Source: Hyphomicrobiales bacterium (GTDB lineage: Bacteria > Pseudomonadota > Alphaproteobacteria > Rhizobiales > Xanthobacteraceae). From it: 64,000 nt of DNA. The position numbers and the translations under genes are program-made. Numbering within the stretch: the stretch's first letter is position 1; each line of letters starts with the position of its first letter. The notes under the pieces were generated by a model. The model searched no databases. It was given only the letters and a program-made list of their open reading frames with translations, and was not told the origin of the DNA. Below are positions 37,280-52,798 of this stretch, one piece after another. The stretch spans positions 1 to 64,000 of the forward strand of contig JAFKKN010000008.1 of assembly GCA_017305535.1 (NCBI GenBank). The letters run 5' to 3'.

Positions 37280-38431
37280 ATGCTGAGCTCGTCTCGCAAG
37301 ACCCTCGCCCCTTGGCGCATCGGGGTGTTGTTTTCCCGCACCGGCTTCATGTCAGTGATCGAGGAGACCCAGTATCACGGGACCATGTTCGCCATCGAGG
37401 AGATCAACGCGGCTGGCGGCATCAATGGCCGCGAGTTGATCCCCGTTATTTATGATCCCGGCTCCGAAGCAATGGCTTTCGGCCATTTTGCGAAGCGACT
37501 GATGATCGAAGACAATGTCAGCACCATCTTCGGCTGCTACACGTCATCGAGTCGCAAGGCGGTCCTGCCGGTGGTGGAGCGCCTCAACGGGTTATTGTGG
37601 TACCCAACCCTGTATGAGGGCTTCGAGGCCTCGCCCAACGTCATCTATACCGGCGCGGCACCCAATCAGAACAGTCTCGCCCTGTGCCGGTTTCTGATGC
37701 GAACCTACGGCAATCGTTTCTATTTCATCGGATCGGATTACATCTATCCACGCGAGTCCAACCGCGTGATGCGAGAGATACTCAAGGAAAACGGAGGCTC
37801 GGTCGTCGGCGAGCGATATCTGAACATTCGCGCTCGACGGCAGGATTTTCTGCCGATCGTGAATGAGATTCGACGCCTGCAACCCGATGTCATTTTCTCG
37901 ACTGTCGTGGGCGACGGAACGGTTTTCCTCTACCAAGCTTACACCGAATCCGGGCTTGATCCGCGCACCATGCCGATTGCGAGCCTCACCACGACCGAGG
38001 CCGAAATCCGCGCGATGGGATTCGACGTCGGTGAGGGACACATCACCGCCGCGCCCTATTTCGAAGGCGTCGCCGGAGATGCCAATGCCGCGTTCGTCGC
38101 CAAATTCAAGAAGCGGTTTGGAGATGATTGCTCGACGAACATGTGCGTCGAGTCATCCTATTTCCAGTTGCATCTGTTCGCGAAAGCGCTCGAGCACGCG
38201 AACACGCTTGATACCGACGTCTTGCGCGCCATGGTGTTGGGAGCAACCTTCGACGCACCTCAAGGGCAGGTAACGGTTGATCCGTTATCGGGGCATACCG
38301 ATCTCTGGACCCGAATCGGACGTGCCGATCGACGCGGACAGTTTGAAATTCTCGATCAGTCCGTATCACCAGTTCATCCGGACCCTTTCCTTATCGGATA
38401 TGGACGCGCAATGGCCGGTGTGGAGTCATGA
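37280..38431 (+). CDS. amiC: Amide-sensing regulator AmiC (cytoplasmic, periplasmic-binding-protein fold)
   Basis: A 383-residue type I periplasmic-binding fold without a signal peptide: it begins MLSSSRKTLAPWRIGVLFSR and goes straight into the first strand. Conserved blocks: MFAIEEINAAGGINGREL, IFGCYTSSSRKAVLPVVE, WYPTLYEGFEASPNVIYTG, YFIGSDYIYPRESNRV and VIFSTVVGDGTVF. In Pseudomonas aeruginosa AmiC binds AmiR and lets it go when short-chain amides bind. The same design fits here because AmiR follows with a 4-base overlap. A closely related, exported version is encoded two genes downstream. Confidence 0.9.
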   Translation: MLSSSRKTLAPWRIGVLFSRTGFMSVIEETQYHGTMFAIEEINAAGGINGRELIPVIYDPGSEAMAFGHFAKRLMIEDNVSTIFGCYTSSSRKAVLPVVERLNGLLWYPTLYEGFEASPNVIYTGAAPNQNSLALCRFLMRTYGNRFYFIGSDYIYPRESNRVMREILKENGGSVVGERYLNIRARRQDFLPIVNEIRRLQPDVIFSTVVGDGTVFLYQAYTESGLDPRTMPIASLTTTEAEIRAMGFDVGEGHITAAPYFEGVAGDANAAFVAKFKKRFGDDCSTNMCVESSYFQLHLFAKALEHANTLDTDVLRAMVLGATFDAPQGQVTVDPLSGHTDLWTRIGRADRRGQFEILDQSVSPVHPDPFLIGYGRAMAGVES

Positions 38432-39078
38432 CGATGAACGATCTCAGCAAGCCGAAGGTGAAGATCGAAAGCGTTGTTGGTGATCACAAATCCGTCGTCC
38501 AGGAACTGAACGGATTAACAGTTGTCGTCGTCGCCCCCCTCGACGATCAGATTGCTTTTCTGGTTCGCGAACTGCAACGTTTGCGAATACGCGCGCGGCA
38601 AACCTGGCCAATGCCCGAGACAATTCCGGGTGACGCCGACGTCGTCTATTGCGAATACGCATCCGATCTGGCGCGACGGTTGCCGTGGATTCCCGGCGAT
38701 GCACGTTCAGCACTGGTCGTTATTCTTCCGAATGGCGATCCGATTCAGGTTGAAGCCCTTGCGCACGCGACACCGGACGCCGTCCTGTCGCGGCCTTTCA
38801 GCGGCAACGCCGTGGTTGCAAGTCTTGTACTTGCGCGAAGCCAGTTTCGTTATGAGCAACGTCTGCGCACCAAGATCGAACGGCTTGATGAGAATCTCAG
38901 ATCGATGCGCACCGTCGAGCGCGCGAAAGCCATTCTGATGACGACAAGACGCATGGCGGAGAACGAAGCTTACAGTTTCATCCGACGACAAGCGATGGAT
39001 CGCCGCGTGTCGACAAGCGTCGTCGCCGCGGCAATAGTTGACTCATTCGAATTGCTTGGCTACGATCAGCAACACTAA
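38428..39078 (+). CDS. amiR: ANTAR-domain antiterminator AmiR
   Basis: A 216-residue protein: an N-terminal pseudo-receiver (about 28-135, TVVVVAPLDDQIAFLVREL, SALVVILPNG, AVLSRPF) without the usual phosphorylatable Asp cluster, a coiled coil (about 140-160), and a C-terminal ANTAR RNA-binding domain (about 160-213: SMRTVERAKAILMTTRRM, SFIRRQAMDRRVSTSVVA, IVDSFELL). AmiR binds leader RNA and stops termination when AmiC is ligand-bound. A terminator with two upstream hexaloop hairpins begins at its stop codon, so its target is probably immediately downstream. Confidence 0.9.
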   Translation: MTMNDLSKPKVKIESVVGDHKSVVQELNGLTVVVVAPLDDQIAFLVRELQRLRIRARQTWPMPETIPGDADVVYCEYASDLARRLPWIPGDARSALVVILPNGDPIQVEALAHATPDAVLSRPFSGNAVVASLVLARSQFRYEQRLRTKIERLDENLRSMRTVERAKAILMTTRRMAENEAYSFIRRQAMDRRVSTSVVAAAIVDSFELLGYDQQH

Positions 39079-39132: not shown

Positions 39133-39180
39133 AAAGCCCTCCCAATGCTCGCGGATCGCGCGCATCGGGAGGGCTTTTTT
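39133..39180 (+). terminator. Strong intrinsic terminator in the amide operon leader
   Basis: AAAGCCCTCCC (39133-39143) pairs perfectly with GGGAGGGCTTT (39167-39177), with an inner ATGC/GCAT and CGCG/CGCG extension, then TTTTTTGTTTTT. It lies between amiR and the solute-binding protein gene, so it must be read through for transport and amidase expression, the step AmiR would control. Confidence 0.92.
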
Positions 39181-39201
39181 GTTTTTGAACAGGGGATGGA
39201 A

Positions 39202-40452
39202 ATGAAACTGACGCGGCGACAACTCCTCAGAAATACCGCAGCATTCGGCGCTTTCGCGAGCACGGGCTTTCCGCACATCTGGATCAAGAATGCAGATCTC
39301 GCTTCGGCCGCGGCCGGAGAGATCAAGGTTGGCGTGCTGTTTTCGCTCACCGGCACCACGGCAATCATCGAAGAATCCCTCAACAAAGCGACGCTTCTGG
39401 CGATCGAGGAGATCAACGCGGCTGGCGGCATCAAGGGCATGAAGATCGTTCCTGTTGTCGAGGACCCCGCGTCAGACCCCGCGACCTTCGCGGACAAGGC
39501 GCGCAAGCTGGTCGTCGGCGACAAATGCGTCAGCGTGTTCGGCTCCTACACGTCCGCCAGCCGCAAGGCAGTGCTGCCGGTCTTCGAACGCCAGAACAAT
39601 CTCTATTGGTATCCGACGCTTTACGAAGGGCGCGAGTGTTCGAAGAACGTGATCTACACCGGTGCTGTGCCCAATCAGCAGCAGGACGAATTCATCCCCT
39701 GGCTGATCAATAAATTCGGCAAGAAGTTCTATCTGATCGGATCGAACTACATCTATCCGAAGGAAGAGAACAACTATTGCAAGAAGCTTTTGCAGAAGCA
39801 TGGCGGCGAAGTCGTCGCGGAAGAGTATGTACCGCTCGGGCATTCCGAATTCTCGTCCGTCATCAACAAGTTCAAGTCGACGCAACCCAACGTCATCTTC
39901 TCCACGGTGGTCGGTGATTCCGTGGTTGCGCTGCATCGGCAGTATCACGCCGCCGGTCTCGATCCCGAGAAAATGCCGATGGCGAGTCTGACGACGTCGG
40001 AGAACGAGATCGCGGCCATGGGTGGCGAAGCCGCCGCCGGTCACTTCACGTCCGCGCCCTATTTCATGGTCTTCCAGTCGCCGGAAAACGAGAAGTTCGT
40101 CGCCGCCTACAAGAAGCGCTGGGGCGCCGACAAGGTGACCCACTTCGTCTCCGAGGCCTGCTACTTCCAGATCCATCTGTTCAAGCAGGCGGTCGAGAAG
40201 CTCGCCGTCAGCGACATCACGCCGCCGAACATTCGCGACGCGGTAAAGGGCCAGGAGACATTGGCCCCTCAAGGCAAGGTCCGCATCGAGCCGGAAAACC
40301 TGCACACGTGGCTCTGGCCCAAGATCGCACAGGCGCAATCGGACGGGCAGTTCAAGATTCTCGTGCAGGCGAAGAACTGGCTCAAGCCACTGCCTTACGC
40401 AGCCTATCCCGGGCAGGTGTGCAGCGAAAAAGGTCTCGTCGTTCAAAACTGA
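39202..40452 (+). CDS. Amide/urea-type ABC transporter solute-binding protein
   Basis: A 416-residue exported binding protein of the UrtA/FmdD/AmiC group. Tat signal MKLTRRQLLRNTAAFGAFAS (twin Arg), mature start near residue 37. Conserved blocks: GEIKVGVLFSLTGTTAII, LLAIEEINAAGGIKGMKI, VFGSYTSASRKAVLPVFE, WYPTLYEGRECSKNVIYTG. It shares these with the cytoplasmic AmiC of the same locus. With AmiE downstream, short-chain amides rather than urea are the likely ligands. The ATG at 39202 is used; AGGGG touches an earlier ATG at 39196 and is 6 bases from this one. Confidence 0.9.
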   Translation: MKLTRRQLLRNTAAFGAFASTGFPHIWIKNADLASAAAGEIKVGVLFSLTGTTAIIEESLNKATLLAIEEINAAGGIKGMKIVPVVEDPASDPATFADKARKLVVGDKCVSVFGSYTSASRKAVLPVFERQNNLYWYPTLYEGRECSKNVIYTGAVPNQQQDEFIPWLINKFGKKFYLIGSNYIYPKEENNYCKKLLQKHGGEVVAEEYVPLGHSEFSSVINKFKSTQPNVIFSTVVGDSVVALHRQYHAAGLDPEKMPMASLTTSENEIAAMGGEAAAGHFTSAPYFMVFQSPENEKFVAAYKKRWGADKVTHFVSEACYFQIHLFKQAVEKLAVSDITPPNIRDAVKGQETLAPQGKVRIEPENLHTWLWPKIAQAQSDGQFKILVQAKNWLKPLPYAAYPGQVCSEKGLVVQN

Positions 40453-40516
40453 TGCGGTGCCGGACGCGTGCGCCGATCGCGCGTCCGGCCTGTCACGCCA
40501 TGCGGAGCATCGACGA

Positions 40517-41386
40517 ATGGATCAATTCATCCAGCAGTTTCTGACCGGCCTCAGCATCGGATCGATTCTGCTTCTTGTGGCGATCGGCCTATCGATCATC
40601 TACGGCGCGATGGGGATCATCAATCTCGCGCACGGCGAATTCGTCATGTTGGGCGCCTACGCGGCCTGGTTCCTACAAGTTCAGTTCGGAATGGGGCTGC
40701 TGACCAGCCTGGTACCGATCTTCCTTCTGGTGGCCGCCTTCGGATGGCTGATTGAACGCTTCGTTCTGAGTTTCCTGAACAACCGCCCGCTCGACACCAT
40801 CCTCGCGACCTGGGGCGTCGGCATCATGTTGCAGCAAGCGGTGCGCCTGACCGCCGGCGGCGAGCTGCGGTACGTCAAGATGCCCGAGGCACTTTCGAAT
40901 AGCACGGACATTTTAGGCGTTCAGATTTCGCTCTATCGGGTTTTTCTGCTGGTCGCCTCGCTCGTTCTTTTTGCCGCGACATGGCTGCTGATGAACCGAA
41001 CCACCGTCGGCATGAAACTGCGCGCCATCATTCAGGATCGATCAGTCGCCGCATCGTTCGGAGTCAATGCCCGGCGGATCTACGGCCTCACATTCGCCTA
41101 CGGCGCAGGGCTCGCTGGCCTCGCCGGCGCGCTGGTGTCTCCGCTTAAAAGCGTCTCGCCTGAAATGGGCACCGGTTACGTGATCGATGCGTTCATGGTG
41201 GTGGTTCTCGGCGGCGTACAGAGCCTCGTCGGCACCGTGGCAAGCGCCTTCATTCTCGGTGAGCTTTCGGGCGTCATCGCATTCCTGCAGAACGATACGG
41301 TCGCCAAGGCGATCGTCCTTCTTGCGATCGTCGTGCTCATCCGGTTCAGGCCCCAGGGCATGTTTGCAACACGCGTCCGCGCCTAA
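40517..41386 (+). CDS. ABC transporter permease (UrtB/LivH type)
   Basis: A 289-residue inner-membrane permease of the branched-chain amino-acid/urea/amide family. Hydrophobic helices start at residue 10 (FLTGLSIGSILLLVAIGLSI), with the family loop YGAMGIINLAHGEFVMLGAY and the conserved ATPase-contact region RTTVGMKLRAIIQDRSVAASFG. It ends VLLAIVVLIRFRPQGMF. ATG at 40517 with GGAG 9 bases upstream. Partner of the next permease. Confidence 0.92.
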   Translation: MDQFIQQFLTGLSIGSILLLVAIGLSIIYGAMGIINLAHGEFVMLGAYAAWFLQVQFGMGLLTSLVPIFLLVAAFGWLIERFVLSFLNNRPLDTILATWGVGIMLQQAVRLTAGGELRYVKMPEALSNSTDILGVQISLYRVFLLVASLVLFAATWLLMNRTTVGMKLRAIIQDRSVAASFGVNARRIYGLTFAYGAGLAGLAGALVSPLKSVSPEMGTGYVIDAFMVVVLGGVQSLVGTVASAFILGELSGVIAFLQNDTVAKAIVLLAIVVLIRFRPQGMFATRVRA

Positions 41387-41404
41387 TGGGATGATTCAAA
41401 AATC

Positions 41405-42544
41405 ATGATGCAGCCGAAGTCCATCGATCCTATCTCTCGTCATCGCCCGAGCGCAGAGCTTGTCGCCATCCTCCTCGTCTGCGCTCTCGTCATCGTGGCG
41501 CCGGTTCTGCTCAACAACGACTACCTGCTCAACAAGGTGGCGCGCTATCTCGTGCTCGGGATGCTGGCGATGTCACTATCGTTGTCCTGGGGTTATGCAG
41601 GAATTCTCAATCTCGGTCAGGCGATGAGTTTTGGCCTTGGCTCCTACGCCATGGCCATGACGCTGAAGCTGAAGACTGTGCCCGTCCATACCGGCCCGCA
41701 GGGACTGCCGGACTTCATGGTCTGGAACAACGTCACTCAACTGCCGTGGTTCTGGTGGCCGTTCGAATCGCAAACGTTCGCCATCTTTGCCGGCATGGCG
41801 ATCCCCGCGGCGGTTGCGGCCGCACTCGGCTGGTTCATGTTTCGCGGACGCATCACCGGCGTCTATGTCGCGATCATTACGCTGGCGGCAATGGTCGTGC
41901 TCAATCTCGTCATTATCGATCAACAGCAATACACTGGCGGCTTCAACGGCATCACCGATCTTGCGCAACTCGAACTATTCGGAATCGCGTTCGATGCCTA
42001 TGGCCGTTCGACCTACTATCTCGTCGCAATCTGCATGACCGGTGCGCTACTCGGCGCCTATGCTTTCACGCGAACCAAAGCCGGACTGATCATTCAAGCG
42101 ATCCGCGACCATGAAAGCCGGGTGCGATACTTCGGCTACGATGTCGGCGCGTACCAGATTGCCGCGTTCGCATTGTCCGCTGCGATCGCCGGGCTTGCCG
42201 GCATGCTCTACACCATCGTGATGGAGTTCGCCTCACCGACATTTCTCGGCGTGCAGCTCAGTCTCTCCGTTGTGGTGTGGTGCGCGGTCGGCGGCCGTCA
42301 GAGCCTGCTTGGCGCCCTGCTCGGCGCCATCCTCGTCGCCGGTGTCCAGGGCGCGCTGTCTGAATCCGCGACATTCCTCGAAACATGGACACTCGTGATG
42401 GGTGGGCTGTTCGTCCTCATCGTGCTGTTCCTGCCGAAGGGTTTGGCCGGGCTCGTATCATCGCTGTGGACCCTGGCCCGGCAGCGTTCGTTCCGTCCGT
42501 TTCGCAGCCTGCACCGCATTGGACAGACGGAGGGCGGCGCATGA
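41405..42544 (+). CDS. ABC transporter permease (UrtC/LivM type)
   Basis: A 379-residue second permease subunit. About ten hydrophobic segments; family blocks LSLSWGYAGILNLGQAMSFGLGSY (read in two parts), WFMFRGRITGVYVAIITLAA, RTKAGLIIQAIRDHESRVRYFG and GAILVAGVQGALSE. The extra 50-residue loop after helix 3 (KTVPVHTGPQGLPDFMVWNN) is typical of UrtC. Its TGA overlaps the next ATG (ATGA). Confidence 0.92.
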   Translation: MMQPKSIDPISRHRPSAELVAILLVCALVIVAPVLLNNDYLLNKVARYLVLGMLAMSLSLSWGYAGILNLGQAMSFGLGSYAMAMTLKLKTVPVHTGPQGLPDFMVWNNVTQLPWFWWPFESQTFAIFAGMAIPAAVAAALGWFMFRGRITGVYVAIITLAAMVVLNLVIIDQQQYTGGFNGITDLAQLELFGIAFDAYGRSTYYLVAICMTGALLGAYAFTRTKAGLIIQAIRDHESRVRYFGYDVGAYQIAAFALSAAIAGLAGMLYTIVMEFASPTFLGVQLSLSVVVWCAVGGRQSLLGALLGAILVAGVQGALSESATFLETWTLVMGGLFVLIVLFLPKGLAGLVSSLWTLARQRSFRPFRSLHRIGQTEGGA

Positions 42545-43293
42545 ATCCGTATCTGCAATTGAGCAACGTAACAGTGAGCTTCAACGGCTTTCTCGCACTG
42601 AACGATCTCAATCTCGACGTGAGCAAAGGCGAACTACGCTGCCTGATCGGCCCTAATGGCGCCGGGAAGACGACGGCGCTCGATCTTATCTGCGGCAAAA
42701 TCAAACAATCCGCCGGCTCGATTGCCTTCAACGGTACGGCTCTCGACGGTCTCGAAGAGTATCGGATCGCGCGCGCCGGGATTGGACGCAAATTCCAGGT
42801 GCCAAGTGTTTTTCGTGAGTTGACGGTCAGCGACAATCTGCGTGTCGCCTGCGCGCACCATCCCGGCGTCCTCAGCAATCTCCGTCCGGGCCATCGCCGA
42901 GCCGATGATGAGGCGGTGGAGCGGCTCGCCGAACTTGTCGGGCTCACCGACCAGCTCAGGAAGCCCGCGGCGTTCCTGTCGCACGGCCAGACCCAATGGC
43001 TCGAAATCGGGATGCTTGTCGCCCAGAACGCCGCGCTGATTTTGATGGATGAGCCGACCGCGGGCATGACCGCGCAGGAAACGCGTAAGACCGCCGATCT
43101 GTTTCTGCGTCTCAAGGGCCGCCATACGCTGATCGTCGTCGAGCATGACATGGGTTTCGTCAAGGCCATCGGCGATGTGATTTCGGTAATGCACCTCGGA
43201 CGGCTGCTGGCGGAGGGCTCGGCGAGCGAGATCGAGTCAAACCCTGCCGTACGCAAAGCCTATCTGGGCAGAGGAGGCATCACCCATGCTTGA
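42541..43293 (+). CDS. ABC transporter ATP-binding protein (UrtD/LivG type)
   Basis: A 250-residue ATPase. Walker A GPNGAGKTT (37-45), the Y-loop region FQVPSVFRELTVSDNLRVA, signature LSHGQTQWLEIGM (LSHGQ rather than LSGGQ), Walker B LILMDEPTAGM, and switch His in VEHDMGFVKAI. Overlaps the upstream permease by 4 bases and the next ATPase by 8, so subunits are co-translated. Confidence 0.93.
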   Translation: MNPYLQLSNVTVSFNGFLALNDLNLDVSKGELRCLIGPNGAGKTTALDLICGKIKQSAGSIAFNGTALDGLEEYRIARAGIGRKFQVPSVFRELTVSDNLRVACAHHPGVLSNLRPGHRRADDEAVERLAELVGLTDQLRKPAAFLSHGQTQWLEIGMLVAQNAALILMDEPTAGMTAQETRKTADLFLRLKGRHTLIVVEHDMGFVKAIGDVISVMHLGRLLAEGSASEIESNPAVRKAYLGRGGITHA

Positions 43294-43981
43294 GATGTCT
43301 CACGTCGATGCCTTCTATGGCAACAGCCGCGCTCTGCAAGGCATCAACCTCGCGGTGGGCGCAGGCGAGTTTCTCGCCGTGCTGGGCCGCAATGGGGTCG
43401 GCAAGACCACGCTGATGCGGACGATCCTCGGACTCATGGATCGTTCCACTGGCGACATCGTCCTCGATGGGAGCGATATTTCGCGGCTTCCGACGCACCG
43501 CCGTGCCAAGGCGGGGGTAGCCTATGTCCCGCAAGGTCGCGGAATATTGCCGCGCTTCACCGTTCGAGAGAATCTCACCCTCGGCACCTTCGCCGCGAAC
43601 GATAGCGACGATGATCTCGAAGGATGGGTGATCGATCTGTTTCCAATGCTGAAGGAATTCATGCAGCGGCACGGCGGCAACCTGTCAGGCGGTCAGCAAC
43701 AGCAACTCGCGATTGCGCGGGCATTGCTGGCGCGACCAAAGGTCATTCTGCTCGACGAGCCGACGGAAGGCATTCAACCCAACATCGTCGAGCAAATCGA
43801 GGATGTCATCATTCGCCTGAATCGGGAGCGCGGCATCACCGTGATCCTGGTGGAACAGAACGTTGCCTTTGCAAGAAGGGCCGCGACCCGCTTCACGTTT
43901 CTCGAGAAAGGACGCGTCGTCGCGAACGGAGTGATCTCCGAGCTTTCAGACGACCTCGTTCAGCGGCACATGGCGGTTTGA
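43286..43981 (+). CDS. ABC transporter ATP-binding protein (UrtE/LivF type)
   Basis: A 231-residue ATPase, second nucleotide-binding subunit. Walker A GRNGVGKTT, GVAYVPQGRGILPRFTVREN, signature LSGGQQQQLAIARALLARP, Walker B VILLDEPTEGI and VEQNVAFARRAATRFTFLEKG. Typical LivF/UrtE length. It is the last transporter gene; amiE follows after 51 bases with its own strong AAGGAG. Confidence 0.93.
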   Translation: MLEMSHVDAFYGNSRALQGINLAVGAGEFLAVLGRNGVGKTTLMRTILGLMDRSTGDIVLDGSDISRLPTHRRAKAGVAYVPQGRGILPRFTVRENLTLGTFAANDSDDDLEGWVIDLFPMLKEFMQRHGGNLSGGQQQQLAIARALLARPKVILLDEPTEGIQPNIVEQIEDVIIRLNRERGITVILVEQNVAFARRAATRFTFLEKGRVVANGVISELSDDLVQRHMAV

Positions 43982-44032: not shown

Positions 44033-45070
44033 ATGTTGCACGGGGATATTTCAAGCAGCAAGGACACAGTCGGCGTTGCTGTGGTCAACTACAAGATGCC
44101 GCGCCTGCATACCAAAGCTGAGGTGCTGGCGAACGCGCGGAACATCGCGTCGATGGTCGAGGGAATGAAGGTCGGCCTGCCCGGCATGGACCTCGTCATT
44201 TTCCCGGAATATTCGACGCACGGCATCATGTACGACTCCAAGGAGATGTACGAAACTGCCTCCAGCGTTCCCGGCGAAGAAACCCAGATCTTCGCCGATG
44301 CCTGCCGGAAGGCGAAGACATGGGGCGTGTTCTCGCTGACAGGCGAACGACACGAGGAGCACCCTAACAAAGCCCCCTACAACACTCTGATCCTGATGAA
44401 CGACAAGGGCGAGATCGTGCAGAAGTATCGCAAGATCATGCCCTGGGTGCCGATCGAGGGCTGGTATCCGGGAAATTGCACTTACGTCTCCGAAGGCCCA
44501 AAAGGACTCAAGATCAGCCTGATCATCTGCGACGATGGAAATTACCCTGAGATCTGGCGCGATTGCGCGATGCGCGGCGCGGAATTGATCGTGCGTTGCC
44601 AGGGCTACATGTATCCCGCCAAGGAACAACAGATCTTGATGGCAAAGGCGATGGCCTGGGCCAACAACTGTTACGTCGCGGTAGCGAACGCGTCCGGATT
44701 CGACGGCGTGTATTCCTACTTCGGCCATTCATCGATCGTCGGCTTCGACGGCCGAACCCTCGGCGAATGCGGCACCGAGGAAAACGGCATCCAGTTCGCG
44801 CAACTCTCGACCTCGCTGATCCGCGATGCCCGACGCACCGGACAATCCAACAACCACCTGTTCAAGCTGGTGCACCGCGGCTACACCGGCATGATCAATT
44901 CCGGCGACGGGGCGCGCGGCGTGGCGGCATGTCCGTATGACTTCTATAAAAAGTGGATCGCCGATCCGGACGGTACACGCGAGATGGTCGAAGCCATGAC
45001 GCGCCCCACCGTCGGCACCGAGGAGTGCCCGATCGAGGGCCTGCCGAACCAGAAGACGGCGCATCGCTGA
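44033..45070 (+). CDS. amiE: Aliphatic amidase AmiE
   Basis: A 345-residue nitrilase-superfamily amidase that hydrolyses acetamide and other short aliphatic amides to acid and ammonia. The catalytic residues are at the same numbers as in the Pseudomonas aeruginosa enzyme: Glu59 (IFPEY), Lys134 (KYRKIMPW), Cys166 ([10 protein letters not shown]), and Glu142. The N terminus ([20 protein letters not shown]) is strongly conserved. It is expected to be hexameric and cytosolic. AAGGAG precedes the ATG. A 10-bp hairpin follows 12 bases after its stop. Confidence 0.96.
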
Positions 45071-45082
45071 TCTCTATTGCGG

Positions 45083-45111
45083 GAGGCTGGGCAGACACCC
45101 CGCCCAGCCTC
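45083..45111 (+). promoter_or_regulatory. Intercistronic hairpin after amiE
   Basis: GAGGCTGGGC (45083-45092) pairs perfectly with GCCCAGCCTC (45102-45111) around a 9-base loop. No T-run follows, so it is more likely an mRNA-stabilising or attenuating hairpin than a full terminator. It sits between amiE and the AAA+ gene. Confidence 0.65.
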
Positions 45112-45125
45112 GTTCCGAAATTTGG

Positions 45126-45950
45126 ATGTCTATGATGCCTGACGAAGCGACCGCTCTCGACCAATATCGTCTTCTCGACGAACCTTATTATCGGGCCGTC
45201 GGACGAGAGATCGATCTCTTCTCGGCCGCCTATGCCAGCCGGATGCCAGTCATGCTCAAGGGGCCGACCGGCTGTGGCAAGACCCGCTTCATTGAGCACA
45301 TGGCCTGGCGGCTTGGCAAACCGCTGGTCACGGTAGCATGTCATGAGGACATGACGGCGTCGGATCTTGTCGGTCGCTGGCTGCTTGATGCCGAAGGAAC
45401 AGTCTGGCGCGATGGACCGTTGACGACTGCCGTTCGCGATGGTGCGATCTGCTACCTCGACGAGATTGTCGAGGCACGGCAGGATACGACGGTGGTCATC
45501 CATCCTCTGACCGACGATCGCAGAATTCTCCCCCTGGAAAAGCGCGGCGAACTCGTCCACGCGCATCCCGATTTCCAGCTCGTGATCTCATACAATCCCG
45601 GTTACCAGAGCGCGATCAAGGACCTGAAAGAATCCACTAAACAACGCTTCGCTTCGCTCGACTTCGGCTACCCGGAAATGTCAGTCGAGACGGAGATTGT
45701 TCGGCGCGAGGCACGGATCAAAGCGGATGTCGCTGAATTTCTGGTCAAGATCGCAAAGCATAGCCGGCACCTCAAGGGACAGGGACTGGACGAGGGTGCA
45801 TCGACCCGCATGTTGATCAACGCGGGCCGTCTTGTCGGACAGGGCATCATGCTCGACGAGGCATGTGAAATCACTCTGGTGACGCCTTTGACGGATGACG
45901 ACGACGTTCGAAGGGTTCTGCGTGACGCAATCGTCGCATGCGTTCCTTAG
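45126..45950 (+). CDS. MoxR-class AAA+ ATPase, CbbQ/NirQ/NorQ type
   Basis: A 274-residue AAA+ protein. Walker A GPTGCGKTRF (Lys52, Thr53), pore/substrate region CHEDMTASDLVGRW, Walker B ICYLDEI (109-113), sensor LVISYNPGYQ, and arginine-bearing STKQRFASLDF. This is the CbbQ/NorQ group, which acts with a VWA partner to activate or insert cofactors into an enzyme (Rubisco, NO reductase). The VWA gene follows after 63 bases. In Pseudomonas ami operons an ATPase gene, amiB, also accompanies amiE; the AAA+ gene here may play that part. Start codon uncertain among ATGs at 45126, 45132 and 45135. Confidence 0.88.
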   Translation: MSMMPDEATALDQYRLLDEPYYRAVGREIDLFSAAYASRMPVMLKGPTGCGKTRFIEHMAWRLGKPLVTVACHEDMTASDLVGRWLLDAEGTVWRDGPLTTAVRDGAICYLDEIVEARQDTTVVIHPLTDDRRILPLEKRGELVHAHPDFQLVISYNPGYQSAIKDLKESTKQRFASLDFGYPEMSVETEIVRREARIKADVAEFLVKIAKHSRHLKGQGLDEGASTRMLINAGRLVGQGIMLDEACEITLVTPLTDDDDVRRVLRDAIVACVP

Positions 45951-46013
45951 TTCCAGCGTGTTTGCTTCACGCAAACCGCAACTCACTTAAGAAATACTCT
46001 TGCAGGTGAAACG

Positions 46014-48269
46014 TTGACTGCCGCGCAAGTTGCCTCACTCACCAGCTTTCGTGTCGAGCGGCGGTTGCACGCTCTTCTCAATGCATATGACGATCTGGAA
46101 CCGGCGTTTGCTGCGGCATGTCGAGTGATCGACAATCATGCCTCGTCTACCGATACAAAAGCCTGGTGCGAGTCCATTATCGATCTGCTGGAACTCAATC
46201 TCGGCGCGGCCACACTCCGCGCGTTCCTTGGTTTGTCGGAGCGCTGGCCACACACGCGACCGCTCGTCGATCTAATTGCTATCGGCCGGTCGTTGCACCG
46301 GATCGGGCGAGAGGCAGGCAGCAGCGCTACACAAGCCCTCCTTGATGCGCTGCCGACATCCTTACGCAGAATCCCGCGTTCATCCGATCTCGGCCGGATA
46401 CTCAACACGCTGACCCAACTTGCCGAACAAGCACCGGAATCCGTCGTCCTTGTAGCGGCAAGATTGAATCCGCTTCTCGAACATCTTGATGCGATCGGCT
46501 TCGAGACATGGCTAACCGCCGGACTACGAGCTCACCGCGCGAACCCACGGAAGCGGCGCGAATATTTCGCGATCGATGATCCGCTATCCTCGCCATCCGC
46601 AATCGACGAGTTCTCAAGGGTCGAGCGGCGGCTGACGATAGGCATCGCGGCACTTTGGAATCAGCGCCCGATATTGCGTCCGACAAAAGCGCGGCGATCC
46701 AGCCTTGTCGGTGGGGTCATCGGCTTGCCGGGATCCTTTCTGGGCACGTCCGGCGATGCATCCGATCGATTGTATTGGGCCGCGATGACCCATGCCGGTG
46801 CGCATTTCGCTTTCTCGGGTCCACCGTTTCCGATCGGAAAACTCAAGCCACTCCAGGTCGCACTCATATCGCTGGTCGAGGATGCCCGCGTCGAGCAACT
46901 GGCAATGCAGCAGATGCCGGGGCTGGCCCGACTATGGCGTCCCTACCATGTGGCGCAGGCATCCGGTCACGCTACCGCAGCGGACCTTCTGGCGCGATTG
47001 TCACGCGCGTTGATCGATCCGTCCTATCACGACGACCACGGCTGGATCGAGAAAGGGCGGGAATTGTTCGCCACCGCCAAGACGGATTGGCACGATCCGG
47101 CAATCAGTCGCCACATCGGAGGTCTGCTCGGCAATGACATCGGGCAAATGCGGCTGCAGTTCAATCCGCGTGCCTATATCATCGAGCCGCCCTATCGTGA
47201 TGACAATATGGGCCTGTGGGATTTCGGCGATCAGCACGGCGAACTCGCCGAAGAGATCGAGGTTGGCGCCGAGTCGGTCCGCATCGAGCAGAAGGAGCGC
47301 GACGACGGTAAACCGAATGAGCAGATCAATGAGACGAGCCCGCGCGCACGGCCTCGGCAAACCGTGGAGGCGGAAGGCGTTCTGGTCGCCCGCTATCCGG
47401 AATGGGATCATGCACTGGGCCGCCTTCGCGGCAACTGGGTGACTGTGCGGGAAAGTGAATCCGGCATCATGTCCCAACCGTCTGAACCGATGCCCGCTGG
47501 CACGAATGTTATCGCACAACGCATCATGGCGATTGCGCGTGGCACCGCGATCGGCCGGCGGATTCGCGAAAAGCGGCAAAACGAGGGAGAGATCCTCGAT
47601 CTCGACGCCTGCATTGCTGCGGCCGTCGCGCGGCGCGGCGGACAGCCTCCCGAAGATCGGGTCTTTCAACGGGAAAATCCGGGGCCGCGCGATCTGGCGC
47701 TGCTGTTGCTGCTGGACATGTCGCAATCAACCGCAGACATAGGCCGCGATGGACGATCATTGCTGGCCGTCGAAAAAGACGCCGCATCGATTCTCGGGGC
47801 GGCTTTCGAGGCCGCCGGGGATGCGCTGGCAATTCACGCGTTCAATTCGGATGGGCGCGAGAAGGTACGCTACGTTCAACTCAAGAGTTTCATCGATCCC
47901 ATGGACGTCATTACCCGTCGACGCCTCGCCGCGATTGCCAGCGAGCATTCGACCCGGCTGGGCGCCGCGTTACGCCACGCCGGCACCTATCTGCAACGGC
48001 AGCGCGCCTTCCGCCACGTGCTGGTGGTCCTGACTGATGGCGAACCTTCCGACATCGACGTGCAAGACCCGGCATATCTTGTCGAAGACGCGCGACACGC
48101 CGCGCAGGCGCTGCGCCGCTCAGGCACCGACGTGCTGGCTTTCGGCCTGGGCCAGGGATCGTTTCGCGCACTTGACCGAATTGTCGGCAGCAAATACGCG
48201 TTTCGGGTGCCACGCATCGAAACGCTGCCGGAGCGAATGATTCAGCTCTATGCACGATTGAAGGCGTAA
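46014..48269 (+). CDS. VWA-domain protein, CbbO/NorD type
   Basis: A 751-residue soluble protein, TTG start with AGGTGA upstream. The N-terminal 400 residues are helical, with the CbbO/NorD region GASDRLYWAAMTHAGAHFAFS-like text (SGDASDRLYWAAMTHAGAHF) and VALISLVEDARVEQLAMQQMPGL in pieces. The C-terminal VWA domain begins about 560 with LLLLLDMSQSTAD (MIDAS DxSxS), then VLVVLTDGEPSDID. In CbbO and NorD the VWA domain binds the target enzyme and the N-terminal part binds the AAA+ ring. Last gene of the amide locus. Confidence 0.88.
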   Translation: MTAAQVASLTSFRVERRLHALLNAYDDLEPAFAAACRVIDNHASSTDTKAWCESIIDLLELNLGAATLRAFLGLSERWPHTRPLVDLIAIGRSLHRIGREAGSSATQALLDALPTSLRRIPRSSDLGRILNTLTQLAEQAPESVVLVAARLNPLLEHLDAIGFETWLTAGLRAHRANPRKRREYFAIDDPLSSPSAIDEFSRVERRLTIGIAALWNQRPILRPTKARRSSLVGGVIGLPGSFLGTSGDASDRLYWAAMTHAGAHFAFSGPPFPIGKLKPLQVALISLVEDARVEQLAMQQMPGLARLWRPYHVAQASGHATAADLLARLSRALIDPSYHDDHGWIEKGRELFATAKTDWHDPAISRHIGGLLGNDIGQMRLQFNPRAYIIEPPYRDDNMGLWDFGDQHGELAEEIEVGAESVRIEQKERDDGKPNEQINETSPRARPRQTVEAEGVLVARYPEWDHALGRLRGNWVTVRESESGIMSQPSEPMPAGTNVIAQRIMAIARGTAIGRRIREKRQNEGEILDLDACIAAAVARRGGQPPEDRVFQRENPGPRDLALLLLLDMSQSTADIGRDGRSLLAVEKDAASILGAAFEAAGDALAIHAFNSDGREKVRYVQLKSFIDPMDVITRRRLAAIASEHSTRLGAALRHAGTYLQRQRAFRHVLVVLTDGEPSDIDVQDPAYLVEDARHAAQALRRSGTDVLAFGLGQGSFRALDRIVGSKYAFRVPRIETLPERMIQLYARLKA

Positions 48270-48506: not shown

Positions 48507-49664
48507 ATGGCTGGCACACGGACCTTCCGCTGGATTCTGCTGATCGTCGGCTTGCTTTGCGGCGGCTATCTGGGCTGGCGGTATTTCCATGCAGAGCCCC
48601 GCAATATTGCGACTTCATCATCAGGAGACGGCATCGGCATCCCCGTCACCGTGACGACGGTGAAAACAACAGACCTTCCGGTTTATCTTCAGGGGCTGGG
48701 CACCGTTCAGGGCTTCAACACGGTCGTGGTGCGGACACGTGTCGATGGACAGGTGGACAAGATTGCTTTCAAGGAAGGGCAACTCGTCAAACAGGGCGAC
48801 CTGATTGCCCAGATCGATCCCCGGCCGTTCCAAGCCACGCTCGATCAGGCCAAGGCGAAAAAAGATCAGGACGAAGCGAGCCTCGCCAACGCCAATCTTG
48901 ATTTGAAGCGTTACACCGAACTTGGCGAATTTGCGACCCGGCAGCAGCTCGATACGCAACGCGCCACCGTTCGCCAAGGGACCGCGCAAGTCGAAGCCGA
49001 TACTGCCGCAATCGCCAATGCCCAGACGCAACTGGACTACACCACGATCCGCGCGCCTATCGCCGGCGTCACTGGGTTTCGTCAGGTCGACCAGGGCAAC
49101 ATCGTCAATGCCTCGACCCAGACGGGCATTGTCACCATCGCGCAAGTCGAGCCGATCGCGGTGATTTTCACGGCCCCGGAAGAAAGGCTTCCGGACATCA
49201 AAACCGCCATGGCCTCGCACGCTTGCAAGGTGATCGCATTGTCGACAGATGGCAAAAAAATACTGTCCGAGGGAACGCTCTCGCTCATCAACAATCAAGT
49301 CGATACGACCAGTGGAACAATTCGCCTGAAGGCGGTGTTTGACAATGCTGATCACGCGCTATGGCCCGGTCAATCCGTCTCAACGCGCCTGCTCCTCAAT
49401 ACCGTGAAAGATGCGGTGGTGGTGCCGGATGATGTGGTTCAACACGGCGCCAACGGCCTTTATGCCTATGTGGTCGGCCCGGACAACAAGGCAGAGCTGC
49501 ATCAGATCGCGATCGGCGCCTCCACCGACGGGCAAACGATCATCGAGAAAGGCCTGACGCCTGGGCAGAACGTGATCGTATCCGGGCAGTACAGGGTGCA
49601 GCCCGGGACCGTCCTTACAACGACTGTTGCGGACGCCGGACAAACCCCGGCCAAGGCCGAATAG
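48507..49664 (+). CDS. RND efflux periplasmic adaptor (MdtA-like)
   Basis: A 385-residue membrane fusion protein. N-terminal anchor WILLIVGLLCGGYLGW, then biotinyl-lipoyl half VVVRTRVDGQVDKIAFKEGQ, a coiled-coil hairpin (about 115-180), second lipoyl half TTIRAPIAGVTGFRQVDQGN and a beta-barrel domain. Wording (GTVQGFNTVVVRTRVDGQV) matches the MdtA group. Links the inner-membrane pump in the next gene to an outer-membrane channel, not encoded here. Two bases separate its stop from the pump start. Confidence 0.92.
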   Translation: MAGTRTFRWILLIVGLLCGGYLGWRYFHAEPRNIATSSSGDGIGIPVTVTTVKTTDLPVYLQGLGTVQGFNTVVVRTRVDGQVDKIAFKEGQLVKQGDLIAQIDPRPFQATLDQAKAKKDQDEASLANANLDLKRYTELGEFATRQQLDTQRATVRQGTAQVEADTAAIANAQTQLDYTTIRAPIAGVTGFRQVDQGNIVNASTQTGIVTIAQVEPIAVIFTAPEERLPDIKTAMASHACKVIALSTDGKKILSEGTLSLINNQVDTTSGTIRLKAVFDNADHALWPGQSVSTRLLLNTVKDAVVVPDDVVQHGANGLYAYVVGPDNKAELHQIAIGASTDGQTIIEKGLTPGQNVIVSGQYRVQPGTVLTTTVADAGQTPAKAE

Positions 49665-49666
49665 AT

Positions 49667-52600
49667 ATGAGCGTGAGCATATCAGCGCCCTTCATTCGTT
49701 ACCCGATTGCCACATCACTGTTGATGGCGGGCGTGCTGTTCGTCGGCCTGGTTGCTTATCCGCTCTTGCCGGTGGCCCCCCTGCCGCAGGTCGATTTTCC
49801 GACCATTCAGGTCTCCGCGTCCCTCCCCGGCGCCAGTCCTGAAACCATGGCATCGTCGGTCGCCCAACCGCTCGAACGACAGTTCGCGCAGATTCCCGGC
49901 ATCTCGCAGATGACGTCGACAAGCTCCCTGGGGTCGACCGCCATCACCATTCAGTTCGATCTTAATCGCAATATCGATGCCGCCACTAACGACGTGCTGG
50001 GCGGCATCAACGCCGCCGGCGGTCAGTTACCCAAGAACCTTCCTTCGCCGCCTACCTATCGCAAGGTCAATCCCGCGGATTCGCCGATCCTGCTGTTGTC
50101 GGTCACCTCCGATACATTGCCATTGACCGAGGTTGACGACTACGCTGACACACGGATGGCGCAGCAGATCAGCCAGATTTCAGGGGTGGCCCAAGTCACC
50201 ATCGGCGGTCAGCAAAAGCCGGCCATCCGAATTCAGATCGATCCCGCGAAACTGGTCGCCAAGGGATTGGCGCTCGAAGACGTTCGCAACCAGATCGGCA
50301 TTGCCACGGTCGATAGTCCGAAGGGCAACGTCGATGGCCAGACGCGGAGCTATACTATCTACGCCAACGACCAGTTGTTGAGCGCCAAGGAGTGGAACAA
50401 CGTCATCATCGCCTATCGCAACGGCGGGCCGCTTCGCATTCGCGACATCGGCGAGGCCGTTGCCGGTCCCGAAGACGTCAAGCAGGCGGCCTGGGCGAAT
50501 GGCAAACGCGGCGTATTCCTCGTGGTCTTCAAGCAGCCGGGCGCCAACGTCATTGACACTGTCGACAAGATCAAGGCACGACTGCCGCAAATGATCGCGG
50601 CGTTCCCGCCTGCCATTCATGTCTCGATCTTGAGCGATCGCACCCAAACCATCCGCGCCGCAGTGCAGGACGTTCAATATACGTTGCTTCTGACGATCTT
50701 TCTCGTCGTCATGGTCATCTTCCTATTCCTGCGCAACATTTGGGCCACCGTGATTCCCAGCGTCACGGTCCCCTTGGCGTTGCTCGGCGCCTGTGCGCTG
50801 ATGTGGGCGTTCGGTTACACACTGGACAATCTGTCGTTGATGGCGCTGACCATTTCGGTCGGATTTGTGGTCGACGACGCCATCGTCATGCTTGAAAATA
50901 TCACTCGCTATGTCGAGCATGGCGAAATGCCTTTTGCCGCGGCGTTGAAAGGCGCCGGTGAAATCGCTTTCACCATCGTTTCGATCAGCATCTCGCTGAT
51001 CGCCGTGCTTATTCCCCTACTCTTGATGGGAGGAATCATCGGGAGGTTATTCCGGGAGTTCGCGGTGACCCTCGCCATGACGATTCTGGTGTCCATGGTG
51101 GTCTCGCTGACCTTGACGCCGATGCTGGCCTCTCGCTTTCTGAAAGCGCATAGCGAGCAAAACCGGCACGGCCGTATTTATCAACTCAGTGAGCGTGGTT
51201 TCGATTCTCTGCTTCGCGCCTATGAACGCGGCCTCAACCTGGTGTTACGATGGCGACGGACGACACTGTGCGTCTTTTTCGCCACCGTCGCGCTGTCGGT
51301 ATATCTGTTTGCCGTCATTCCAAAGGGCTTTTTCCCTCAGCAGGATACCGGGCTGCTCACGGCGGTCACCGAAGCAGGCCAGGATGTTTCATTTGCTGAA
51401 ATGAAACATCTTCAGGAACAGGCCGGCGAAATCATGCTTGCGGATCCGGACGTCGCCGGTGTCGCCATGGCGATCGGCGGAGGAGGAAGCGCACTCAACA
51501 CCGGGCGCATGTATGTGACTCTGAAGCCTAGAGACGAGCGCAAGGCCAACGCGCAACAGATCATCGCGCGGTTGCGGACTCAATTCGACAAGCTACAGGG
51601 CGTTCGGGTTTACATGCAGGCCGCGCAGGACGTTCGCCTCGGCGGACGCGCCACACGAACACAGTTCGAATACACCTTGCAGGATGCCGATCTCGATGCG
51701 TTGAATTCGTGGGCGCCAAAGATTCTCGCAAAGCTGAAAACCCTGCCGGAACTGCGCGACGTCGCCACGGACCAGCAGACCGAGGGGACGACGCTGACGC
51801 TGACGATCGATCGCGATACGGCGTCGCGCTACGGCATTCAACCGCAATTGATCGACGATACGTTGAATGATGCCTTCGGTCAGCGGCAGGTCGCGCAGTA
51901 TTTCACTCAGGTCAACAGCTACCACGTGGTGTTGGAGATTCTACCCGCCTTGCAGGGCAAGCTCGACACGCTAAATAAAATCTACATCAAGTCGCCGACC
52001 ACCGGCGATCAGATTCCTTTGTCGGTATTTGCCAAATGGACCACGGTGCCGATCCGCCCGCTCTCCATCAGCCATCAAGGGCAATTCCCGGCAACAACCA
52101 TTAGTTTCAACCTCGCGCAGGGCGTTGCACTCGGTCAGGCAACGCAAGCCATTACGCGGGCGGTCTCGGAATTGGGGGCTCCTGAAACCCTCAGCGGTAG
52201 CTTTCAAGGAACCGCGCAGGCCTTCCAGCAATCGCTCGGCACGGTACCGCTCCTGATCCTCGCAGCGCTGGTGGTGGTCTATCTCATTCTCGGCATCCTG
52301 TATGAGAGCTACATTCATCCGCTCACCATCATATCCACTCTGCCTTCGGCTGGCGTCGGCGCGTTGGCGACATTGATGTTGTTCGGCTACGACTTCAGCC
52401 TCATCGCGCTGATCGGCATCGTCCTCTTGATCGGCATCGTCAAGAAAAACGGAATCATGATGGTCGATTTCGCCATCGTCGCCGAGCGAGACGAGCACCT
52501 CTCGTCGGAGGCCGCGATCCGCAAGGCGGCGCTGATCCGCTTTCGCCCCATCATGATGACAACAATGGCGGCCGCCCTGGGCGGCGTGCCATTGATGCTC

Positions 52601-52798
52601 GGCACCGGAACGGGATCGGAGATTCGCCAACCGCTCGGCTATGCGATGGTCGGCGGGTTGCTAGTCAGCCAGATGCTGACGCTCTTCACAACTCCCGTGA
52701 TTTATCTTTACCTCGACAAACTGTCGAACTTGCTATCCGGCATGGGGCGAACGACCACAACCGAACACCGTGTATTGCCTCTGACGCGATCAGGATAA
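49667..52798 (+). CDS. RND efflux pump, MdtB/MdtC (HAE-1) type
   Basis: A 1043-residue proton-driven transporter with the usual duplicated 12-helix layout. It starts SAPFIRYPIATSLLMAGVLF; helix 4 carries VGFVVDDAIVMLENI with the proton-relay Asp pair; helix-10 region QQDTGLLTAVTEAGQD; C-terminal GIVLLIGIVKKNGIMMVDFA. The wording and length match the MdtB/C group, which export bile-salt-like and other hydrophobic compounds in enterics. One pump gene only, no TolC-type gene and no adjacent regulator. Confidence 0.94.
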   Translation: MSVSISAPFIRYPIATSLLMAGVLFVGLVAYPLLPVAPLPQVDFPTIQVSASLPGASPETMASSVAQPLERQFAQIPGISQMTSTSSLGSTAITIQFDLNRNIDAATNDVLGGINAAGGQLPKNLPSPPTYRKVNPADSPILLLSVTSDTLPLTEVDDYADTRMAQQISQISGVAQVTIGGQQKPAIRIQIDPAKLVAKGLALEDVRNQIGIATVDSPKGNVDGQTRSYTIYANDQLLSAKEWNNVIIAYRNGGPLRIRDIGEAVAGPEDVKQAAWANGKRGVFLVVFKQPGANVIDTVDKIKARLPQMIAAFPPAIHVSILSDRTQTIRAAVQDVQYTLLLTIFLVVMVIFLFLRNIWATVIPSVTVPLALLGACALMWAFGYTLDNLSLMALTISVGFVVDDAIVMLENITRYVEHGEMPFAAALKGAGEIAFTIVSISISLIAVLIPLLLMGGIIGRLFREFAVTLAMTILVSMVVSLTLTPMLASRFLKAHSEQNRHGRIYQLSERGFDSLLRAYERGLNLVLRWRRTTLCVFFATVALSVYLFAVIPKGFFPQQDTGLLTAVTEAGQDVSFAEMKHLQEQAGEIMLADPDVAGVAMAIGGGGSALNTGRMYVTLKPRDERKANAQQIIARLRTQFDKLQGVRVYMQAAQDVRLGGRATRTQFEYTLQDADLDALNSWAPKILAKLKTLPELRDVATDQQTEGTTLTLTIDRDTASRYGIQPQLIDDTLNDAFGQRQVAQYFTQVNSYHVVLEILPALQGKLDTLNKIYIKSPTTGDQIPLSVFAKWTTVPIRPLSISHQGQFPATTISFNLAQGVALGQATQAITRAVSELGAPETLSGSFQGTAQAFQQSLGTVPLLILAALVVVYLILGILYESYIHPLTIISTLPSAGVGALATLMLFGYDFSLIALIGIVLLIGIVKKNGIMMVDFAIVAERDEHLSSEAAIRKAALIRFRPIMMTTMAAALGGVPLMLGTGTGSEIRQPLGYAMVGGLLVSQMLTLFTTPVIYLYLDKLSNLLSGMGRTTTTEHRVLPLTRSG

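Follow-up and report, generated by a model that had tools for sequence, protein, structure and literature searches.

Why should a CbbQ-type AAA+ ATPase gene and a CbbO-like von Willebrand factor A (VWA) gene, relatives of a system that activates Rubisco, follow amiE, the gene of an aliphatic amidase? The locus lies in a 64,000-nucleotide stretch (here called the window; contig JAFKKN010000008.1, positions 1 to 64,000) of a Hyphomicrobiales bacterium of the Xanthobacteraceae (assembly GCA_017305535.1). MoxR AAA+/VWA pairs are widespread, and to our knowledge very few of them have a known client. We consider it probable that the AAA+ and VWA proteins form a remodelling machine of the CbbQO type whose client is AmiE, docking on the C-terminal tail of the amidase and reactivating it when it is trapped. 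The observed basis is the linkage of the genes, a C-terminal tag on AmiE, the co-variation of tag and VWA adaptor, the intact residues of motor, metal ion-dependent adhesion site (MIDAS) and active site, and a genome free of Rubisco. The three genes are consecutive on the + strand at 44033-48269, with gaps of 51 bp between urtE and amiE, 55 bp between amiE and the AAA+ gene and 63 bp between the AAA+ and VWA genes. The first-pass annotation had described them as lying on one strand with short gaps behind a urea-type ABC transporter, and its open reading frame (ORF) coordinates are exact.

44033..45070, + strand: amiE, aliphatic amidase of 345 aa and proposed client (NF009802 717.8 bits, cut-off 427)
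45062..45067, + strand: codons of the AmiE C-terminal His344-Arg345 tag, followed by the stop (from the comparison of tails with VWA genes)
45080..45117, + strand: strong RNA hairpin in the amiE-AAA+ intergenic gap (minimum free energy -28.4 kcal/mol for 45068-45128, z -3.89)
45126..45950, + strand: CbbQ-type AAA+ ATPase of 274 aa, proposed motor (AAA_5 123.8 bits, CbbQ_C 96.3 bits)
46014..48269, + strand: CbbO-like VWA/MIDAS adaptor of 751 aa with a TTG start (PF00092; best Foldseek match the NorD VWA domain 9qh6_G)

The identity of the client is indicated by the last two residues of AmiE. A penultimate His was found in 81/81 AmiE proteins whose locus has a VWA gene and in 0/37 of the rest, so that tail and VWA gene agreed, both present or both absent, in 118/118 loci examined. 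The pattern was complete in the first AmiE set (15/15 with the pair nearby, 0/23 without) and in all sets gathered ahead of a plasmid test (75/75 with a VWA gene in the stretch, 0/27 without), and the plasmid predictions, fixed in advance, were right in 16 of 16 cases (6/6 tags and 10/10 absences). A scan of all AmiE columns in 73 paired and 27 unpaired sequences ranked His344 first and Arg345 second in how strongly the two groups differ; a single unpaired row also aligns a His at 344, though it is not the penultimate residue of that protein. The partial AmiE sequences of L109 and L131 are included in the tail count and excluded from the scan and the tree described below. Outside the count are L008 (457 bits, above the family cut-off, 56% identical, ending KM, with no VWA match in its 4 kb), three weaker amidases and 44 of 64 plasmid records, 20 having been read. 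The tag is rare or absent in most other proteins of the VWA loci, with 0/57 UrtB, 0/61 UrtC, 0/81 UrtE, 1/44 AmiR, 1/73 AAA+, 0/79 VWA and 0/19 UreC proteins carrying it.

The same tail has been described in the Rubisco system. Rubiscos activated by CbbQO are reported to end in His-Lys/Arg with a critical penultimate His (PMC4660213, PMC8718961), and the loss of one or two residues, or the addition of one, abolishes activation, the last residue being replaceable (PMC4660213). RbcL-like proteins adjoining CbbQO genes in our data have the penultimate His in 33/33 cases (21 + 12, two of the 12 ending HA and HS). The AmiE tail behaves alike, with an invariant penultimate His and a last residue that is R, K, A or S (Arg 69, Lys 4, Ala 1 and Ser 1 among the 75 paired proteins).

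Window AmiE keeps Glu59, Lys134 and Cys166, which we take to be its catalytic residues. The AAA+ protein has AAA_5 and CbbQ_C domains, both above the gathering score, and the Walker A motif GPTGCGKT; its best sequence match in the PDB is 5c3c, a CbbQ/NirQ/NorQ domain protein (E 8.6e-120), and it is 64-70% identical to seven Rubisco-linked CbbQ proteins with the same two domains. PF00092 is the only family over its cut-off in the VWA protein, whose MIDAS is intact (D568-S570-S572...T647...D675), the five residues being invariant in 42 sequences, four of them from Rubisco loci. In its AlphaFold model (predicted local distance difference test, pLDDT, 87) a helical N-terminal part is followed by a linker that is disordered (408-452) and then by the VWA domain. 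The PDB entries that match this domain best are VWA domains of NorD from NorQD complexes (TM score 0.76 by target length for the modelled domain). A structure model of AmiE, made for the exposure of the tail, was poor (pLDDT 60) and was not used.

CbbQO and ami loci are alike in the gene order enzyme-Q-VWA, the closely related motor, an adaptor with intact MIDAS and the His-bearing tail of the enzyme. They differ in the client, which would be a nitrilase-superfamily amidase and not Rubisco, and in the adaptor, as the ami proteins are only about 26-33% identical to Rubisco-linked CbbO and fall on another branch of the tree, and in some genomes stand alone beside amiE. NorQD is likewise an AAA+/VWA pair, reported to act in maturation (PMC9976466), and in its structures a finger of the VWA protein enters the AAA+ pore and the VWA domain rotates (PMC13036017). 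In contrast to the ami pair, NorQD has a VWA protein of a separate branch, and the NorB-like proteins (COX1 family) of NorQD-type loci lacked the tail in 3/3 readable cases (seven loci fetched). No norCB genes were recognised by eye in ORF lists of 30-52 kb, in which no family search was made.

How widely the arrangement occurs was addressed in two samples. In a phylum-wide sample of 398 genomes, 31 encode AmiE and in eight of these, the window's counted, the AAA+ and VWA genes adjoin amiE. VWA matches were absent from 16 of the other 23 AmiE genomes, and in the remaining seven were confined to the C-terminal part (profile positions 387-731), a NorD-like pattern. A scan of GTDB genome contigs with an alignment of 15 VWA proteins matched at least 590 stretches; confirmation left 558, and the 80 best of these were taken further. 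The contig carries AmiE in 53 of these 80, Form I Rubisco in 21 and neither in six (L126, L145, L156, L175, L189 and L197). In five of the six the contig breaks off near the pair; in L145 an IstB-like ORF was read upstream by eye. The three-gene order is also found on plasmids of Shinella, Rhizobium, Roseibium, Paraburkholderia and Aestuarium and in many chromosomes, a recurrence that argues against chance linkage. To the question posed at annotation of whether the pair follows amiE in many genomes, the answer is therefore yes, as judged from the best 80 VWA stretches, without its being universal, and the pair is far from confined to this one amiE. Searches of the window genome itself (99.4% complete) gave no RuBisCO_large match (E 1e-5) and, apart from the pair, neither a CbbQ/NorQ-type AAA+ protein (E 1e-10) nor a VWA relative (E 1e-8), so that the pair is unlikely to serve a Rubisco there.

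A further class-level sample (AmiE in 12 of 321 genomes, 11 of them new and examined) allows the tag to be followed apart from the motor. Seven of the 11 new loci have a VWA gene, and all seven AmiE are tailed; the four without a VWA gene are all untailed. In six of the seven VWA-bearing loci (L209, L210, L211, L212, L214 and L216) no AAA+ relative lies in the stretch, and all six genomes encode a CbbQ-like protein elsewhere (65-69% identity), located by RbcL in three (L248, L250, L251), by a CbbO-like VWA gene with no RbcL in 15 kb in two (L246, L249) and by neither in one (L247). In genomes G713 and G908, CbbQ (67%) is present, no VWA gene lies in the AmiE stretch, where the adaptor was looked for, and AmiE is untailed. 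Since these two have CbbQ and no tail while the adaptor-only loci are tailed, the tag goes with the adaptor and not with the motor in this small set. The adaptor-only loci perhaps use a CbbQ motor borrowed from elsewhere in the genome. Acidithiobacillus caldus (L265) gives a similar picture: its VWA match is annotated as two genes, the 10 kb fetched hold no AAA+ match, and its AmiE ends HK.

Paired AmiE proteins are kin, so the tail counts do not amount to independent events. In a tree built from 100 AmiE sequences with the last 14 residues removed, VWA presence changes nine times and the tail nine times; the two traits are identical in 100/100 rows, so all nine independent pairs on the best tree agree (9/9, sign test p 0.004). 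Within genus g172, L100 has the VWA gene and ends PHR, whereas its relatives L088, L096 and L099, in one clade of 99% support, have neither gene nor tag. Similarly, L138, a metagenome-assembled genome of Bradyrhizobium, has the VWA gene and the tail AHR among rows of g169 (inferred to be Bradyrhizobium) that lack the gene and end NY (support 87-92). A FastTree phylogeny of 130 VWA rows, in which long branches were flagged, holds a NorD-type branch, a branch of Rubisco loci with four loci lacking RbcL in the stretch, a branch of the six adaptor-only ami loci and a 72-row ami branch with three rows from outside ami loci, namely L145 and two cut contigs. Rubisco-linked VWA proteins form their own branch (99% local support), and the ami proteins fall outside it.

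From these observations and by homology with the characterised pairs, we infer that the pair would dock on AmiE, remodel it and reactivate it. The CbbQ-like protein would be the ring motor and the CbbO-like VWA protein the adaptor gripping the His-Arg tail of AmiE, with the MIDAS metal probably holding a second, acidic site. ATP hydrolysis would turn the adaptor and strain AmiE, and the strained enzyme would open active sites trapped by a dead-end ligand or adduct and become active again. The drive would be as in NorQD, with the C-terminal tail as one handle. The most likely purpose is the reactivation of inhibited AmiE, a role favoured because the nearest relatives of the pair are activases that use the tag.

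Several points weigh against this reading. We know of no requirement of AmiE for an activase, and 23 of the 31 AmiE genomes of the phylum-wide sample do without the pair. Strongly supported branches of the AmiE tree hold only three independent switches (sign test p 0.25). Among acidic AmiE residues the column scan showed none that clearly marks paired enzymes, so it names no MIDAS ligand. At least one further MoxR-type AAA_3 protein (201.7 bits) is encoded in the window genome, though none is close to CbbQ. UrtD has a penultimate His in 18/65 VWA loci compared with 1/30 others, perhaps from codon overlap with the urtE start. As to what traps AmiE, the enrichment of UreC in VWA loci (19/81 compared with 1/35 others, in stretches of differing length) hints at urea, and a carbamoyl-cysteine derived from urea is no more than a guess; urea is reported to inhibit AmiE, but no paper in support was found in the open-access literature searched.

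The main rival, which we regard as unlikely yet worth serious attention, is that the pair is a chaperone for the folding or hexamer assembly of AmiE, with the tail as its handle. The maturation role of NorQD is a precedent (PMC9976466), an assembly or activation role has been proposed in work on Pseudomonas veronii Yu15 (PMC13209695), and the correlation with the tail would fit any direct client relation. It is, however, difficult to reconcile with the 37 of 118 AmiE whose locus lacks a VWA gene, and with the tail itself, a recognition element of CbbQO that the readable NorB-like proteins lack. In the classical model of AmiE there is no metal or cofactor for a chaperone to insert. That the pair instead disassembles or parks AmiE when amides are absent seems to us improbable: AAA+ machines commonly take complexes apart, and the hairpin ahead of the pair hints at expression below that of AmiE, but an operon with an AmiR-type regulator would be an odd place for an inhibitor, and CbbQO, the closest characterised relatives, activate (PMC4660213).

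It could also be argued that the pair serves another neighbour, such as the transporter, urease or acetyl-CoA synthetase, the AmiE tail being unrelated; the excess of UreC and the His-bearing UrtD proteins noted above lend this some colour. We give it hardly any weight, as UreC is missing from 62/81 and acetyl-CoA synthetase from 78/81 VWA loci in the stretches fetched, the UreC, UrtC and UrtE proteins are all untagged, and in L097 (14.9 kb), for example, the pair adjoins AmiE in a stretch without any urt-like match. Urease maturation, suggested by urease genes lying between amiE and the pair in several loci, was rejected as the role of the pair on the same UreC counts. An earlier proposal had been a machine for maturation, for disassembly or for removal of an inhibitor, acting either on AmiE or on an enzyme using its product. 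The AmiE branch is well supported by the widespread linkage, the complete tail agreement and the tag shared with CbbQO Rubiscos, and the product-user branch is weak because acetyl-CoA synthetase occurs in just 3/81 VWA loci. Among the three jobs, removal of an inhibitor, or reactivation, fits best by homology.

The genes upstream of amiE in the window are as follows.

37280..38431, + strand: UrtA/AmiC-like binding protein, probable sensor partner of AmiR (Peripla_BP_5 464 bits; TIGR03407 361.3, cut-off 492.75)
38428..39078, + strand: AmiR-type ANTAR regulator (AmiR_N and ANTAR above cut-off)
39145..40452, + strand: UrtA-like substrate-binding protein of the transporter (Peripla_BP_5 482 bits; TIGR03407 421.7, cut-off 492.75)
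40457..43981, + strand: urtBCDE-type ABC transporter genes (UrtB, UrtC and UrtE above NCBIfam cut-offs)
42385-43293, + strand: UrtD, ABC ATPase (ABC_tran 101.5 bits)

Both UrtA-like proteins are under the NCBIfam UrtA cut-off. The hairpin at 45080-45117 may, judging from its predicted fold, keep activase expression below enzyme expression; in the amiE-AAA+ gap of five other loci the folding z ranges from 0.14 to -3.84. Downstream, at 48507-52798, inspection of the ORF list by eye showed membrane-fusion and RND efflux-like genes in the same orientation as the operon. The single urease match of the window genome lies on another contig. In other loci, urease sets (ureE, F, fused AB, C, G, D) stand between amiE and the pair (L124 12344-17495, L262 9108-14195 and others), an arrangement identified by Pfam in L124 and by annotation in Ancylobacter. 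FmdA was found in 7/81 VWA loci compared with 27/35 others, and a gene of the cytosine/purine-permease family in 13/81 compared with 0/35 (for example, L119 6736-8067 and L161 6622-7788).

AmiE proteins without a VWA gene may have a partner of another kind. A ClpB-like AAA+ gene, which we take to be AmiB, lies next to amiE in 13/37 VWA-less loci and in 0/75 VWA loci. In 12 of these 13 loci it follows amiE directly, and in Rhodococcus L274 it is divergent; the gene has AAA_2 and ClpB_D2-small domains in 7/7 tested. AmiB-type and CbbQO-like loci are alike in having an AAA+ gene beside amiE, and differ in the family of that gene, the window AAA+ protein having no ClpB-like AAA_2 domain, and in the tail, which bears Glu-Lys or Glu-Arg in the last ten AmiE residues in 13/13 AmiB-type loci compared with 3/24 loci that have neither partner (L087, L219, L271). 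One clade holds 11 of the 13 AmiB-type AmiE, and the other two, from Actinomycetota and Bacillota, are from plasmids whose AmiB-like ClpB-type genes are as follows.

L278 810-3046 (Parageobacillus): AmiB-like ClpB-type gene, AmiE tail Glu-Lys-bearing
L274 6811-9038 (Rhodococcus): AmiB-like ClpB-type gene, AmiE tail Glu-Lys-bearing

As a sign that the AmiE tail is a code for its AAA+ partner, the AmiB tail sequences are suggestive, not strong. Unpaired AmiE ending Asn-Tyr, with no AmiB or VWA gene found, occur in genus g169 and on an Agrobacterium plasmid (L079, L080, L082, L084-L087, L093, L268); this could be a third tail type with another partner, or chance.

An operon of this kind has been noted once before. 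A plasmid operon of P. veronii was reported in 2026 to contain amiE, CbbQ/NorQ-like, NorD-like, amiC and amiR genes, with BLASTN homologues in Burkholderiales and with a possible assembly or activation function for the CbbQ/NorQ-like and NorD-like proteins, whose roles were called unclear (PMC13209695). The accessible part of that text does not mention a C-terminal AmiE tag, and no other relevant paper was found in the open-access literature; the word 'amidase' is absent from the main texts of PMC4660213, PMC8718961 and PMC4633670. The co-variation of the AmiE His tag with the VWA gene is the new finding.

We also entertain, more tentatively, the possibility of a general repair system in which one CbbQ motor works with several VWA adaptors that read the same His tag on unrelated enzymes. 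CbbQ would then be shared between carbon fixation and amide use in the adaptor-only genomes, and the AmiE tail would be a partner code, His-Arg for a CbbQO-like partner and Glu-Lys/Arg for AmiB. What sets the ami pair apart among MoxR AAA+/VWA systems is that its client can be named from sequence and that the docking residue has already been mapped in the Rubisco system. If the proposed role is true, the ATP-driven reactivation of a trapped active site would not be peculiar to Rubisco, and the H-K/R tail would be a search key for further clients. If the tail is a partner code, it would also give AmiB of Pseudomonas-type amidase operons a role.

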